NCBI GenBank assembly: GCA_029552745.1
Contig: JAKPDK010000172.1
Location: forward strand, 62,001-126,000
Direction: 5' to 3'
Source of the DNA: Candidatus Hydrogenedentota bacterium
GTDB taxonomy: Bacteria; Hydrogenedentota; Hydrogenedentia; Hydrogenedentales; SLHB01
Length of the DNA: 64,000 bases
In this document: piece after piece, positions 666-35,656 of the stretch
Numbering within the stretch: position 1 is the first letter of the stretch
How the letters are laid out: every line of letters begins with the position of its first letter
The notes under the pieces: generated by a model
What the model was told of the DNA's origin: nothing
Database searches by the model: none
Seen by the model: only the letters and a program-made list of their open reading frames with translations
Program-made: the position numbers and the translations under genes

Positions 666-1149
666 TTAGTTCAGTGGCGGCGAGCTTGCCGTAGGCGCTG
701 AACCATCAGCGGTGAAACGAATCACACCCGACTCGTCCACGAAGTACTGCCGATAACCCGTTCTACCAACAGCCTGCGGGATGCCCGTGCACGTGTAAGC
801 CGGCAATGTGGTCGCGCTACCCAGAGTCACAGTAACTGTGAAGTTGTAACCGTGTTTCGCGCCAGCGCCCAAAACCGCATCGATAAACGGCGGGGTGGTA
901 CCGGCACCGTCCGGGTTCGCTAACTGCGCCATAGTCACCTACCCCATCAGCGTCAGCGTCAACAAAGCCCGCTGTCTGGAAACCTACCTCACCGGTAGAA
1001 ATGATGCGCATAGCGCCGGCCGCATTTGCCTCATTCGCACTCATGCGAGAACGAAGCAAGTTCGGTATTGCGATTGCCGCAATAATCGCGATAATCGCTA
1101 CCACAATCATCAGCTCAATCAACGTGAAACCTTTAGTTTTCATACTCAA
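666..1149 (-). pseudogene. Type IV prepilin / pseudopilin-like gene with internal frameshift
   Basis: The first part begins with a short basic leader, the prepilin peptidase site KGFTLIEL and the hydrophobic spine MIVVAIIAIIAAIAIPN, and continues as a pilin helix with LLRSRMSANEANAAGA. After the segment DADADGVGDYG near position 930 the frame is lost. The homologous continuation (AQLANPDGAGTTPPFID, then a beta-rich C-terminus ending TADGSAPTASSPPLN) is in the +1 frame and runs to the stop at 666. Joined, the protein would be about 160 residues, normal for a small major pilin. The start has a strong AGGAGGG site, a sigma-54 promoter lies upstream and a terminator downstream, so the locus still looks like an active transcription unit. 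A small deletion or an assembly error would both explain the break. Confidence 0.75.
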
Positions 1150-1238: not shown

Positions 1239-1255
1239 AGCAACCCGCGTGCCGA
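1239..1255 (-). promoter_or_regulatory. Sigma-54 promoter of the prepilin gene
   Basis: The minus strand reads TCGGCACGCGGGTTGCT, which matches the consensus TTGGCACG-N4-TTGCT at every defined position except one. GG and GC are separated by exactly 10 bases. The predicted start is near 1228, giving an 80-base leader. Pilin genes are commonly under RpoN control in other bacteria. The match is seen directly; activity is inferred. Confidence 0.8.
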
Positions 1256-31443: not shown

Positions 31444-33891
31444 CTACTCTGCTGGAAGTTGTTCCCGTTTTCCACGTCGCAAAACAACGTAACGATGACC
31501 ATTCGACAAAGTCACCGTTTCCTCATCGCGGTTAAACTCGGCCAAATACCAGCTCCCTTCCACCTCCCCTAGCACAGGCAGCAACCGCGTGCGTACTCTT
31601 CCATCAGGATAATAAAGCACAATTCTAAACTGTGGAGGACGTCCCTCGGACGACAAAAACCCTCGTAGCTCCACTTCTGGTAGTGCCGGCGGCACCTCGG
31701 GCACCGGTTCCAAAGTTACAGGTGACAAAATATCTTCCGAAGGCAACGTTTCTGTCGATGGCGTCTCTTCCCTGCCCGTTGTTTCAGGTTCCGAAGGCTG
31801 TACGACGGGCTCCTGAATAGTAAAAGACGAAACGATTTCATCCTTCCCCAAAACGATCCGATATTCTCCCGGAGGCAACTTGTAGAAAAATTTCCCCGTC
31901 ATCTGGGAACCTATCACGACATGGCTCATGCGCCCGCCCTGAACCGTTACTTCTTGATCGCCCACAACGAGCCTTGAAGGATTTCCGGCGTCCTCCCACT
32001 GGTCTGCTCCAACACGTCGCTCCACCGCAAACTCCACTGCATTCCGCAAGCCTGCTGCACGAGGGTTCAACACGAGAGGGCGTCGACCTTCATTTACCAG
32101 ATGGATCTCCACTTCAGAATTGCCTGTCTCATCAGGACTGGAAACACTGATAGGCTCTGTCAACATCGGCTTCGCACGGAAAAAGCCAAAGAAATCGGTG
32201 GAAACTACTGTGGAACAGCCAACTAAACCCACTACGACGGCAAGAACAAACACCCACCCGCGGCGTATTTTCATCAATGCGATACAACCGCCAATAAACA
32301 TGGTCAGCAGCGCGACAACATAAACTAGAAATCCGGGACGCAAAAACCATAGACCATTTTGGGTAAAGTACTCTCCGATCAACCCCACGCTGTTCATACA
32401 CTCTTGGCGATAGACGGCTATTCCCAATGTTAGGAAAAAGCAAGTCACGAGAGCGATTGACCCTCTTATACCGTTTGATGGCAAAAACGCCCCACCAAAG
32501 ACAGCGAGCGCTCCAGCAAGGGGTAACAACACTAACCAATAAACCTGGGGATTGACCTGCCGCATATCCCGGACACACTCTACGGCAGACAAGGTACCCA
32601 AACTCGGCAAGAAAAGGGCGATCATTAAGAGTCCGGCACCTATCCACAAAAAAAGAGCGTCACGAGCGACGGAAGTCTTAGGGGCACGGCGGGGCCCCCC
32701 CTCTCCCACTTCTCGATGTTCATAGGGAACAGATTGAGGGGATTCGGAATGGAACGCGCGCCGAATCAATTCGAGCGCGTTCATCAACTCCGAAGAAACA
32801 CGGGCTTTCTCTCTTGAAAAAGCGTTGAATTGACTCTTTGTGACCTCCCCAATGCTCAATCTCCCCCGAAAAACCGTCAATTGGTCCGCAAGGATTTGAA
32901 GGTCTGCCTTATAGTCACGCTCCAGCTGTTCCAATCGATCCCGACAAAACGCAATATTAGCCTCTGCGCGGTCGCGCTCTCCTTCCGCATCCGCCCGCCG
33001 ATGTCCCAAATCAACAGGATCGCCAAATCCTCGAGCCTCCAAACGATTGGCTTCTGTTATTTTTCGTTCTGCAAACTCCCGTTGAGTCAATGCATCGCGT
33101 AGCGACCGAACCCACCAATCCGCTAAAGGAGAACCTTCCTCCGGTTCATGGCGAAACGCGATTTTTCCTGAGATGTCGGGTTCATGGTCCATCGGCAAAC
33201 GTACATAGCCACCCGCTTCGTAGGGAGTCTTTACCGCTAACCACGCCCGAAGATTTACCCGACGCCGTTCTAAGATGTCTCGACGGCGCCGAAGCTTCTC
33301 TGCTTGATCCCGGTAGTTCGAAAACTCTATTTCACCAGCCTTTGCGTTTAGACTCAGTTGCGAGAGCCTTTCCAAAACCGATTTAAGCTCCGCTTCGGTT
33401 TCCGTCAGGGTTTCTCGAAGCTGATTGTTCAACTCTTCACGCACCGATTGAATTCTTTTAAGGTAACGATTCAACTGGCGTTCGTCGTAACTGCTTCCGC
33501 TGGATGATGGACTACCCTGGAGCACAGTCAGTTTGTGCGAAATCCTATATTCCAAACTTACTAAAGCTCGCAGTGTCTCGAGAACGTCCAACGGAAAAAT
33601 ATTCGGAGACGCGCCCTCTTCAGGAAACTCCGCAGCGTCCTTTCCTAAAACCACTTCAGCCTGCTCAGAAAGCTTTTCTTCCTTTGGGCGACGACTCTTC
33701 CTCAAAAATTCGGGATGTTCCTCAAGGGATATAACTTTTGTGTCGGTCGGAATCTCGTCCTCATTCGGAATACGAATTTTCTGTTTGCACGCCACACACC
33801 TGCCTGGCTTACCATACATAAAGGGACTGATCCGCATTCGTTGTCCGCAAATGCAGATAAGTCTCAGTTCCGGGGAGGACGCTTCACCCAT
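31444..33891 (-). CDS. Large membrane protein: N-terminal zinc ribbon, coiled coils, membrane block, C-terminal beta region
   Basis: I do not recognise this 815-residue protein as a whole. The N-terminus has paired cysteines (CICG then CVAC, about residues 12-36), a zinc-ribbon layout. Residues about 110-390 are charged and heptad-like, suggesting long coiled coils. About 415-565 hold five or six membrane segments. The C-terminal part has an Ig-like or beta-sandwich look (VNEGRRPLVLNP), a Pro/Glu/Thr/Ser-rich linker near 690-730, and a final domain with FRIVLYYPDGRVR and TVTLSNGHRYVVLRRGKRE. The ATG at 33891 has GGAGG 9 bases upstream; a TTG two codons earlier is less well placed. A stand-alone transcription unit. 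Confidence 0.8.
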   Translation of the reverse strand: MGEASSPELRLICICGQRMRISPFMYGKPGRCVACKQKIRIPNEDEIPTDTKVISLEEHPEFLRKSRRPKEEKLSEQAEVVLGKDAAEFPEEGASPNIFPLDVLETLRALVSLEYRISHKLTVLQGSPSSSGSSYDERQLNRYLKRIQSVREELNNQLRETLTETEAELKSVLERLSQLSLNAKAGEIEFSNYRDQAEKLRRRRDILERRRVNLRAWLAVKTPYEAGGYVRLPMDHEPDISGKIAFRHEPEEGSPLADWWVRSLRDALTQREFAERKITEANRLEARGFGDPVDLGHRRADAEGERDRAEANIAFCRDRLEQLERDYKADLQILADQLTVFRGRLSIGEVTKSQFNAFSREKARVSSELMNALELIRRAFHSESPQSVPYEHREVGEGGPRRAPKTSVARDALFLWIGAGLLMIALFLPSLGTLSAVECVRDMRQVNPQVYWLVLLPLAGALAVFGGAFLPSNGIRGSIALVTCFFLTLGIAVYRQECMNSVGLIGEYFTQNGLWFLRPGFLVYVVALLTMFIGGCIALMKIRRGWVFVLAVVVGLVGCSTVVSTDFFGFFRAKPMLTEPISVSSPDETGNSEVEIHLVNEGRRPLVLNPRAAGLRNAVEFAVERRVGADQWEDAGNPSRLVVGDQEVTVQGGRMSHVVIGSQMTGKFFYKLPPGEYRIVLGKDEIVSSFTIQEPVVQPSEPETTGREETPSTETLPSEDILSPVTLEPVPEVPPALPEVELRGFLSSEGRPPQFRIVLYYPDGRVRTRLLPVLGEVEGSWYLAEFNRDEETVTLSNGHRYVVLRRGKREQLPAE

Positions 33892-33988
33892 GGACAATTA
33901 CCTCCGTCGTGCTACACTAAAGGTACCGCGAAAACCACCGAAAATGCAAAAAGACACGTGCTTACCGTCCTTTCCGATTCCGACGAAA

Positions 33989-34004
33989 TGACAACTTTTT
34001 GTCA
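33989..34004. promoter_or_regulatory. Inverted repeat, candidate enhancer site for a sigma-54 activator
   Basis: TGACAA-N4-TTGTCA lies with its centre about 150 bases upstream of the predicted start of the sigma-54 promoter at 34120-34136. It has the same half-sites as the repeat upstream of the prepilin gene. It also lies about 98 bases upstream of the divergent gene starting at 33891, which it might control instead. Confidence 0.5.
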
Positions 34005-34119
34005 CAATACCACAGGGCTGACAGTTTTTCATATCACCCAAATTTGTCAGTTCGATCATAAAATCCCATAAGTTAGCAACTTGTTGCTACTTATTGCTTT
34101 GTTGGAACCCTATTGGGCA

Positions 34120-34136
34120 TTGGAACAAATATTGCT
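34120..34136 (+). promoter_or_regulatory. Sigma-54 promoter
   Basis: TTGGAACAAATATTGCT has GG and GC separated by exactly 10 bases and agrees with the consensus TTGGCACG-N4-TTGCT at all but two defined positions. It shares TTGCTCTC plus TCT with the prepilin promoter. The predicted start is near 34147. It precedes a terminator (34186-34225) and then the PHP gene. Confidence 0.65.
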
Positions 34137-34146
34137 CTCTTCTTTT

Positions 34147-34225
34147 TGAGTGCCCATCCCGCCTAAGCACGCAGCGCACGACGATGCGAAACCCTCGGTA
34201 TCCCCTACCGGGGGTCTCGCTTTTT
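34147..34225 (+). ncRNA. Candidate sigma-54-dependent small RNA or attenuator leader
   Basis: The predicted transcript from the sigma-54 promoter meets a strong terminator after about 80 bases. No open frame of note is present. Either it is an independent small RNA or the leader of the PHP gene 70 bases downstream, with conditional termination. The boundaries are predicted, not observed. Confidence 0.45.
34186..34225 (+). terminator. Rho-independent terminator / attenuator
   Basis: GCGAAACCCTCGGTA pairs with TACCGGGGGTCTCGC (two non-Watson-Crick positions) around a TCCCC loop, followed by T5. No plus-strand gene ends nearby, so the hairpin must act on a transcript that begins in the intergenic region. 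Confidence 0.75.
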
Positions 34226-34294: not shown

Positions 34295-35656
34295 GTGCCC
34301 CCAGCAATGTCACAAAATGTTCCCAAGAAATCACTTCTCAGAAGACTCACGAAAGCTGCCGCCCTGTTTTTACTGGTTATCGTGGCGCTTCTGTTGGTTG
34401 CGTTTCTTGTTGTGTTTCGCGCAGCGATCTATCACCGTCTGGTTACATTCCCCGCAGAAAAAAGCGCATGGGAAACGATTCGAGCCCAACGGGAGCAAGT
34501 GGTGTTGGATGACGGTTGGATGGAAATACGCGGAGCCTGCCATAGCCACTCGGAATTATCACACGACAGTGAAATACCTTTCGCGGAGATACTCGCCGCA
34601 CTGAAACAAGCAGAGCTCGAGTTTATTTGTATGTCCGATCATACGATTGACGGCAAAGCAGATTATTCACTCGGCTGGCGCGGCGACCACGAAGGTGTTA
34701 TTTTCATCAGAGGTTTTGAAATGGCTCACGGCTTTATGCCTTGGGGGCTGCCCGATGACACCATACTTGATAACGCCATGGAGCCACACGCCTTAGCACG
34801 TCTTATCGCAGAAAAAAACGGCCTGCTTTTCTTTGCTCACCCGGAGGAAGAACGTCTTTGGGACCTTCCCGAACTGACAGGCATGGAGATTTACAATCTT
34901 CATGCCGATTTCAAAGATGAGAAACTGGCCGATCTCTTGCCGGATCTTATCCTCAACCTGTCGGCATACCCTGATCAGACACTTCGGCTGATTTTCGACC
35001 GCCAAACCGAAATCCTTAAGCATTGGGACGCCTTGAATCAGCAACGAAAGATTGTCGGTATCGCGGCAAACGACGCTCATCAAAACACCGGCATAAGAGG
35101 ATACGTAACCGAACAAGACACGTTTCAGCTACGTGAAAGAGGCTCAGCTGATGTGATAAAAGAGTGGAATCTGAATCCCTTTTCAAAACTTTTATTGCAG
35201 ACTCTATTTGGAAACTGGCAAGGTACCCGAGAACTTTTCTCCATTACCCTTGATCCTTACGTACAAAGCCTGCGATACGTCAATACGCACCTCCTCGTTG
35301 CTGAAAAGAGTGAAGCAGCAATCTTGGATGCACTAAAGTCAGGCAGATGCTTTGTCGCATTTGACATGATCGCGGATGCCCGCGGATTCACTTTCATGGC
35401 CGAAAACGGACAGCAGAAGACGGTCATGGGCGAGCAAATATCCTTTAGCCCCGACCTCACCTTTCTTGCAGAGTCCCCTTTGCCTTGCCATTTTGCGCTG
35501 GTTCGCAATGGAGAACGGGAAGCGGAACAAACAGGCCGGATGTTTGTGTGGAAAGCCCAATCATCCGGAGTTTACCGATTGGAAGCCGAGTTGCAGGTCC
35601 GCAATGAGTGGATACCTTGGGTCTACACAAATCCCATTTTCGTGAAAGATAATTGA
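34295..35656 (+). CDS. Membrane-anchored PHP-domain protein
   Basis: The 453 residues begin with a basic N-terminus and one membrane segment (about 25-48), placing the rest outside the cytoplasm. From about 82 the PHP-superfamily metal motifs appear in order: HSHSELSHDS, CMSDHT, EMAHG, FAHPEEE and ANDAHQN. PHP proteins hydrolyse phosphoesters with a trinuclear metal centre. The C-terminal 130 residues are beta-rich and may be a separate domain. The GTG start has AGGAG 9 bases upstream. A sigma-54 promoter and a terminator hairpin precede it. Substrate unknown; the exported location is unusual for the family but not unique. Confidence 0.8.
   Translation: MPPAMSQNVPKKSLLRRLTKAAALFLLVIVALLLVAFLVVFRAAIYHRLVTFPAEKSAWETIRAQREQVVLDDGWMEIRGACHSHSELSHDSEIPFAEILAALKQAELEFICMSDHTIDGKADYSLGWRGDHEGVIFIRGFEMAHGFMPWGLPDDTILDNAMEPHALARLIAEKNGLLFFAHPEEERLWDLPELTGMEIYNLHADFKDEKLADLLPDLILNLSAYPDQTLRLIFDRQTEILKHWDALNQQRKIVGIAANDAHQNTGIRGYVTEQDTFQLRERGSADVIKEWNLNPFSKLLLQTLFGNWQGTRELFSITLDPYVQSLRYVNTHLLVAEKSEAAILDALKSGRCFVAFDMIADARGFTFMAENGQQKTVMGEQISFSPDLTFLAESPLPCHFALVRNGEREAEQTGRMFVWKAQSSGVYRLEAELQVRNEWIPWVYTNPIFVKDN

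Follow-up and report, generated by a model that had tools for sequence, protein, structure and literature searches.

Organization of the locus

The window, i.e. the whole 64,000-nt stretch of DNA that was analysed, comes from a Candidatus Hydrogenedentota genome (G000) of 4.36 Mb in 188 contigs, and carries in one divergent intergenic region a row of short elements, which are given below with the flanking genes by window position.

31444–33897, minus strand: gene of an 817-aa zinc-ribbon/coiled-coil/membrane protein, divergent from the RNA gene and its conserved synteny partner
33989–34004: palindrome TGACAACTTTTTGTCA, TGACAA-N4-TTGTCA, 132 bp upstream of the −24 element
34018–34050: second inverted half-site pair CTGACAGTTTT ... 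AAATTTGTCAG, with 11-nt arms that are 82% complementary
34074–34089: perfect-armed palindrome TAGCAACTTGTTGCTA, between the putative activator boxes and the promoter
34120–34136, plus strand: sigma-54 (−24/−12) promoter TTGGAACAAATATTGCT, with the −24 GG and −12 GC at the correct 10-base spacing; homologous TGGCAYN5TTGCT in the members found by covariance model
34147–34225, plus strand: predicted non-coding small RNA of ~78 nt, predicted +1 at ~34147
34150–34179, plus strand: 5′ hairpin region, counterpart of the CGUCU/AGACG hairpin of relatives
34171–34185, plus strand: linker GCAGCGCACGACGAT, counterpart of the conserved GGAAAGCACGGUCCCAGC but strongly diverged, with only GCACG kept
34186–34225, plus strand: intrinsic terminator, with a stem-loop at 34186–34220 (loop UCCCC) and TTTTT at 34221–34225
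34295–35656, plus strand: PHP-domain gene, downstream and outside the conserved unit

The original prediction had read a palindrome, a sigma-54 promoter and a terminator in this order and had noted that no plus-strand gene ends in the region, and it was right on both points, the left neighbour being encoded on the minus strand and the next plus-strand gene starting at 34295. Within the 5′ hairpin region, GTGC (34150–34153) can pair with GCAC at either 34167–34170 or 34176–34179, and the minimum free energy fold picks the latter. Taken singly, the promoter and the terminator are weak and barely above chance: the sigma-54 pattern had one match in the window versus 0.33 expected, and 42 in the G000 genome versus 25 for the reversed control, while three terminator-like sites were found in the window versus 2.0 expected; the RNA fold of the block had a z of −2.4. 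Since single motifs prove little, conservation had to be the test.

Conservation and covariation of the RNA

A DNA search of relatives returned a weak match in genome G021 (L008), which covered the terminator only and had another sigma-54 site just upstream. A covariance model built from these two members (R1) recovered six further full-length homologues from the same family (E-values of 4e-19 to 8e-7), and a second model (R2), built from the eight sequences and run against 68 genomes, newly added G006, G019, G002, G008, G014 and G050, the last belonging to a different family; the R2 E-values are circular for its own eight sequences, though not for the six additions. The promoter-hairpin block, whose conservation in related genomes had been proposed as a check of the original prediction, was thereby found together with linker and terminator in 14 of the 68 Hydrogenedentota genomes. 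Twelve of the 25 family genomes had no match to the covariance model, and five of those 12 have a candidate from the synteny scan described below. Conservation of the entire block in relatives shows that the co-occurrence of its motifs is not a matter of chance.

In the alignment of the 14 sequences, which was fitted to the covariance model and so leans towards the structure, 94.8% of paired cells were standard pairs and compensatory changes occurred at 8 of 13 base pairs, versus 0–3 compensatory pairs and at most 57% paired when partners were slid by one to three columns. The compensatory changes lie in both helices, and the terminator helix is kept in all 14 members with such changes at five of its eight pairs, pointing to selection on the RNA itself.

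The members share a common anatomy, namely the TGGCAYN5TTGCT promoter, a predicted start ~12 bases past the −12 GC, a short hairpin that opens the RNA at its 5′ end, the linker (GGAAAGCACGGUCCCAGC in most members) and then the GC-rich terminator hairpin. Two-hairpin folds were obtained for most members, most keep a GGA after the 5′ hairpin, and the predicted RNAs are 72–95 nt long. From a reading of the folds, a CCC run lies in or near the terminator loop in 17 of 18 members or candidates of family f1. The window copy departs from the others in the linker, while its hairpins, promoter and UCCCC loop remain.

Weak covariance-model matches (L174, L175 and L127–L133) were set aside, and L143 in G008, having a sigma-54 site with the palindrome but lacking a terminator, was rejected as a non-member. 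One of the weak matches, L175:1501–1614 (G003, C123; E-value of 0.02), places a sigma-54 promoter and a hairpin-rich stretch near flagellar-type genes, and could be a paralogous RNA.

Linkage to a phylum-wide gene

Of 68 Hydrogenedentota genomes, 66 have an orthologue of the 817-aa gene, and the RNA gene is divergent from the orthologue in nine of them (G000, G003, G020, G024, G023, G006, G019, G002 and G050), so the linkage spans at least nine genomes in two families. In G021, G009, G017, G008 and G014 the RNA gene is located elsewhere and the 817-aa gene is still present. The original prediction had noted the divergent setting, but had not considered the 817-aa gene, the partner to which the RNA gene is linked in relatives.

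This synteny allowed a test independent of the covariance model, in which the DNA preceding 63 copies of the 817-aa gene was scanned for a sigma-54 site followed by a terminator. Such a pair was found on the divergent strand in 18 of the 63 regions and on the opposite strand in one, and mononucleotide shuffles gave 0–2. Clear diverged candidates missed by the covariance model were thus obtained in G001, G004, G010, G016, G022, G032 and G038, and less certain ones, with no recognizable sequence similarity, in G026, G029 and G031.

The 817-aa protein reached no Pfam cut-off. Its C-terminal domain has a confident predicted fold (pLDDT of 94), and a GspC/PilP-like identity for this domain was dropped, there being no significant PDB match by fold or sequence and no more than Pfam hints (Y4YQ_C and T2SSC). 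Judged by its distribution, it is a phylum-level core protein to which no function is assigned. Pilus genes lie near the RNA gene in some genomes (pilM in G021 and G009, a PilT-like ATPase gene in G014), but a pattern of the RNA gene always standing beside pilus genes was not upheld, its neighbours in G008 and G017 being unrelated. In G021, a 6S RNA gene (RF00013, 68 bits; L119:1079–1262, minus strand) was observed with the pilM operon on one side and the sigma-54 small RNA gene on the other.

Upstream boxes common to the RNA gene and the prepilin gene

Near the left end of the window, the following elements precede a prepilin gene.

1239–1254, minus strand: prepilin sigma-54 promoter CGGCACGCGGGTTGCT, of the gene with an N-methylation motif whose ORF runs from ~1143 on the minus strand
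1364–1378: matching palindrome TGACAATTTTTGTCA / TGACAAAAATTGTCA, 124 bp upstream of the prepilin sigma-54 promoter

A TGACAA-Nx-TTGTCA palindrome lies 123–124 bp upstream of the main prepilin sigma-54 promoter in G000, G002, G019, G003 and G020. Exact TGACAAN2-5TTGTCA palindromes number only six in the G000 genome, where the reversed control pattern has no match, and two of the six precede the RNA and the prepilin sigma-54 promoters. Over 24 RNA promoters, the density of TGACA/TGTCA was 14.2 per kb at −100 to −150 versus 0–4.2 per kb in the other bins. At the sequence level, the RNA gene thus carries the putative activator boxes of the pilin promoter, as would be expected of a member of a PilR/pilin regulon. 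The palindrome TGACAACTTTTTGTCA is probably the binding site of the sigma-54 activator, with CTGACAGTTTT ... AAATTTGTCAG probably providing further boxes for it; TAGCAACTTGTTGCTA, a palindrome not seen in the upstream regions of relatives examined, is possibly a site for another regulator. The TGACA/TGTCA boxes are not general to the sigma-54 promoters of G000, because the promoter of a response-regulator/histidine-kinase gene (L002:1380–1530, C102) is preceded by different repeats, the TTGTGCAA boxes, which by their sequence mark a second, different sigma-54 activator regulon.

In other bacteria it is established that PilR controls pilin with sigma-54 and that PilR regulons extend further (PMC6058289). 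G000 encodes rpoN and 13 strong enhancer-binding proteins; nine of the 13 were scanned against NCBIfam, none scored above the cut-off and no PilR name was obtained. L101, which has a histidine kinase next to it, is no more than a candidate for the activator.

As a separate observation, the prepilin frame (window 666–1149, minus strand) shifts after ~75 codons (MKTKGFTLIELMIV...), which could mean that the gene is disrupted, that recoding occurs here or that the assembly is wrong; relatives have intact copies (L154, L156 and L161).

A predicted sigma-54-dependent small RNA and how it may act

The locus has a −24/−12 promoter, upstream boxes and a structured, terminated, non-coding unit, the sequence hallmarks of a sigma-54-dependent small RNA gene. 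The original prediction had offered two products, a sigma-54-dependent small RNA under joint control with the prepilin or a leader of the PHP gene, and the first of these gained support from conservation, covariation, synteny and the common upstream palindrome. The block, its conservation, its covarying helices, its synteny and the palindrome before both promoters are established directly by the genome sequences. We infer that the RNA is transcribed, that one activator drives the RNA and the pilin promoters, and that the RNA acts in trans. The element is likely to be a stand-alone sigma-54-dependent small RNA gene, co-activated with pilin, whose product acts in trans without Hfq. That it is a real regulatory RNA is very probable because relatives across this little-studied phylum keep the gene, and what it regulates is very probably cell-surface behaviour.

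In the proposed mechanism, an enhancer-binding protein would sit on the TGACAA/TTGTCA boxes 100–150 bp upstream, and the sigma-54 polymerase would start at ~34147; since the same boxes stand before the major prepilin promoter, expression of the RNA and of pilin should be turned on jointly. In the resulting RNA, which would end at the built-in terminator, the 5′ hairpin would be followed by a short unpaired stretch, the linker, and then by the terminator hairpin with its C-rich loop. Without help from Hfq, the linker and/or the CCCC loop may then pair with target mRNAs at their G-rich ribosome-binding sites, the pairing of a C-rich loop with such sites being proposed on the basis of the UCCC-loop RNAs. 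Pairing with the starts of the pilin or the divergent-gene mRNA was predicted no better than for shuffled sequences, so a target was not found there. Hfq itself was not found in the 30 genomes searched, G000 included, while control genomes gave matches, which makes a Qrr-like Hfq mechanism unlikely. Tentatively, it is possible that the RNA couples pilus production to other surface functions phylum-wide and independently of Hfq, with the C-rich terminator loop as its conserved seed.

The same lack of Hfq matches would also suit an RNA that binds or sequesters a protein (a CsrA/Crc-like regulator or an RNase) rather than pairing with mRNAs, and known sigma-54 RNAs such as CrcZ do sequester a protein (PMC7602753). 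We consider this unlikely: the GGA kept after the 5′ hairpin in most members speaks for it, but most members have only one GGA outside the stems, there is no repeated protein-binding motif, and the C-rich loop and the linker look more like pairing sites.

Action mainly in cis on the divergent 817-aa gene, with the RNA product itself unimportant, is improbable. The activator-bound region could serve both promoters, or transcription of the RNA could alter supercoiling or promoter access, and the long-lasting divergent linkage is what such a role would leave. Against it, the five genomes with the RNA gene elsewhere nevertheless conserve hairpins and linker, the linker core of G003 and G020 being identical to that of G021, and the compensatory changes indicate that the RNA is under selection.

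The second product of the original prediction, a leader or attenuator in which sigma-54 transcription would be stopped at the terminator or let through into the PHP gene, was not borne out and is highly improbable. The PHP gene does start 70 bp past the terminator on the same strand, and it has orthologues in 49 of 60 relatives, but a sigma-54 site with a terminator occurred in none of 29 regions upstream of PHP orthologues (0 of 58 strand-regions). The block adjoins other genes in relatives, PHP never being the shared neighbour, and the gene past the terminator is convergent in six genomes (G021, G009, G006, G023, G008 and G014); the attenuator reading fails on this synteny and these convergent genes. 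That the row is a functionless coincidence of motifs has next to no probability left, for although every motif by itself barely exceeds chance, conservation, covariation, synteny and operator position refute it.

Relation to known sigma-54-dependent RNAs

The best reading of the sequences is therefore that these small RNAs form a predicted new family, dependent on sigma-54 and belonging to the regulon of the pilin activator. No Rfam family was matched at or above its gathering score, and the sole weak match, RF00627 (P15; 14.9 bits versus a cut-off of 70, E-value of 0.84), is at chance level; literature searches found no regulatory or small RNA described from Hydrogenedentota. The analysis supplies a covariance model that can be used at once, together with a promoter, a probable binding site for the activator and the hypothesis of a regulon comprising pilin and the RNA. 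Interest in the RNA is moderate and comes from how widely it occurs, from its connection to the pilus regulon and from the lack of Hfq. It would exemplify regulation by a small RNA in a lineage with no recognizable Hfq and would tie a phylum-wide core gene, that of the 817-aa protein, to the pilus regulon.

In its predicted mode of action the RNA resembles Qrr, GlmY/GlmZ, NrsZ and CrcZ, small RNAs that likewise depend on sigma-54, and is not of those families. The Qrr RNAs of Vibrio, activated by LuxO with sigma-54, are ~100 nt long, have their own −24/−12 promoter, upstream activator sites and an intrinsic terminator, need Hfq and respond to quorum sensing. The Hydrogenedentota RNA resembles them in having its own −24/−12 promoter, upstream boxes and an intrinsic terminator, but differs in that no Hfq was found, no Rfam family was matched and its activator boxes are common with pilin, which sets it outside the Qrr group. 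With GlmY/GlmZ (GlrR, sigma-54), which act on glmS with RapZ, it would share sigma-54 dependence and a tie to envelope functions, whereas these RNAs are longer, have another structure and show no sequence match through Rfam. Sigma-54 control of GlmY in enterobacteria is recorded as a reference in PMC7602753, which also lists the Pseudomonas RNAs NrsZ and CrcZ as controlled by NtrC and CbrB, activators that work with sigma-54; these two RNAs differ from the Hydrogenedentota RNA in length and sequence, and CrcZ is a sponge. In the PilSR/sigma-54 regulons of Pseudomonas and Geobacter, an NtrC-type regulator acts with sigma-54 at the pilin promoter and on further genes (PMC6058289), and the available part of that source mentions no small RNA.
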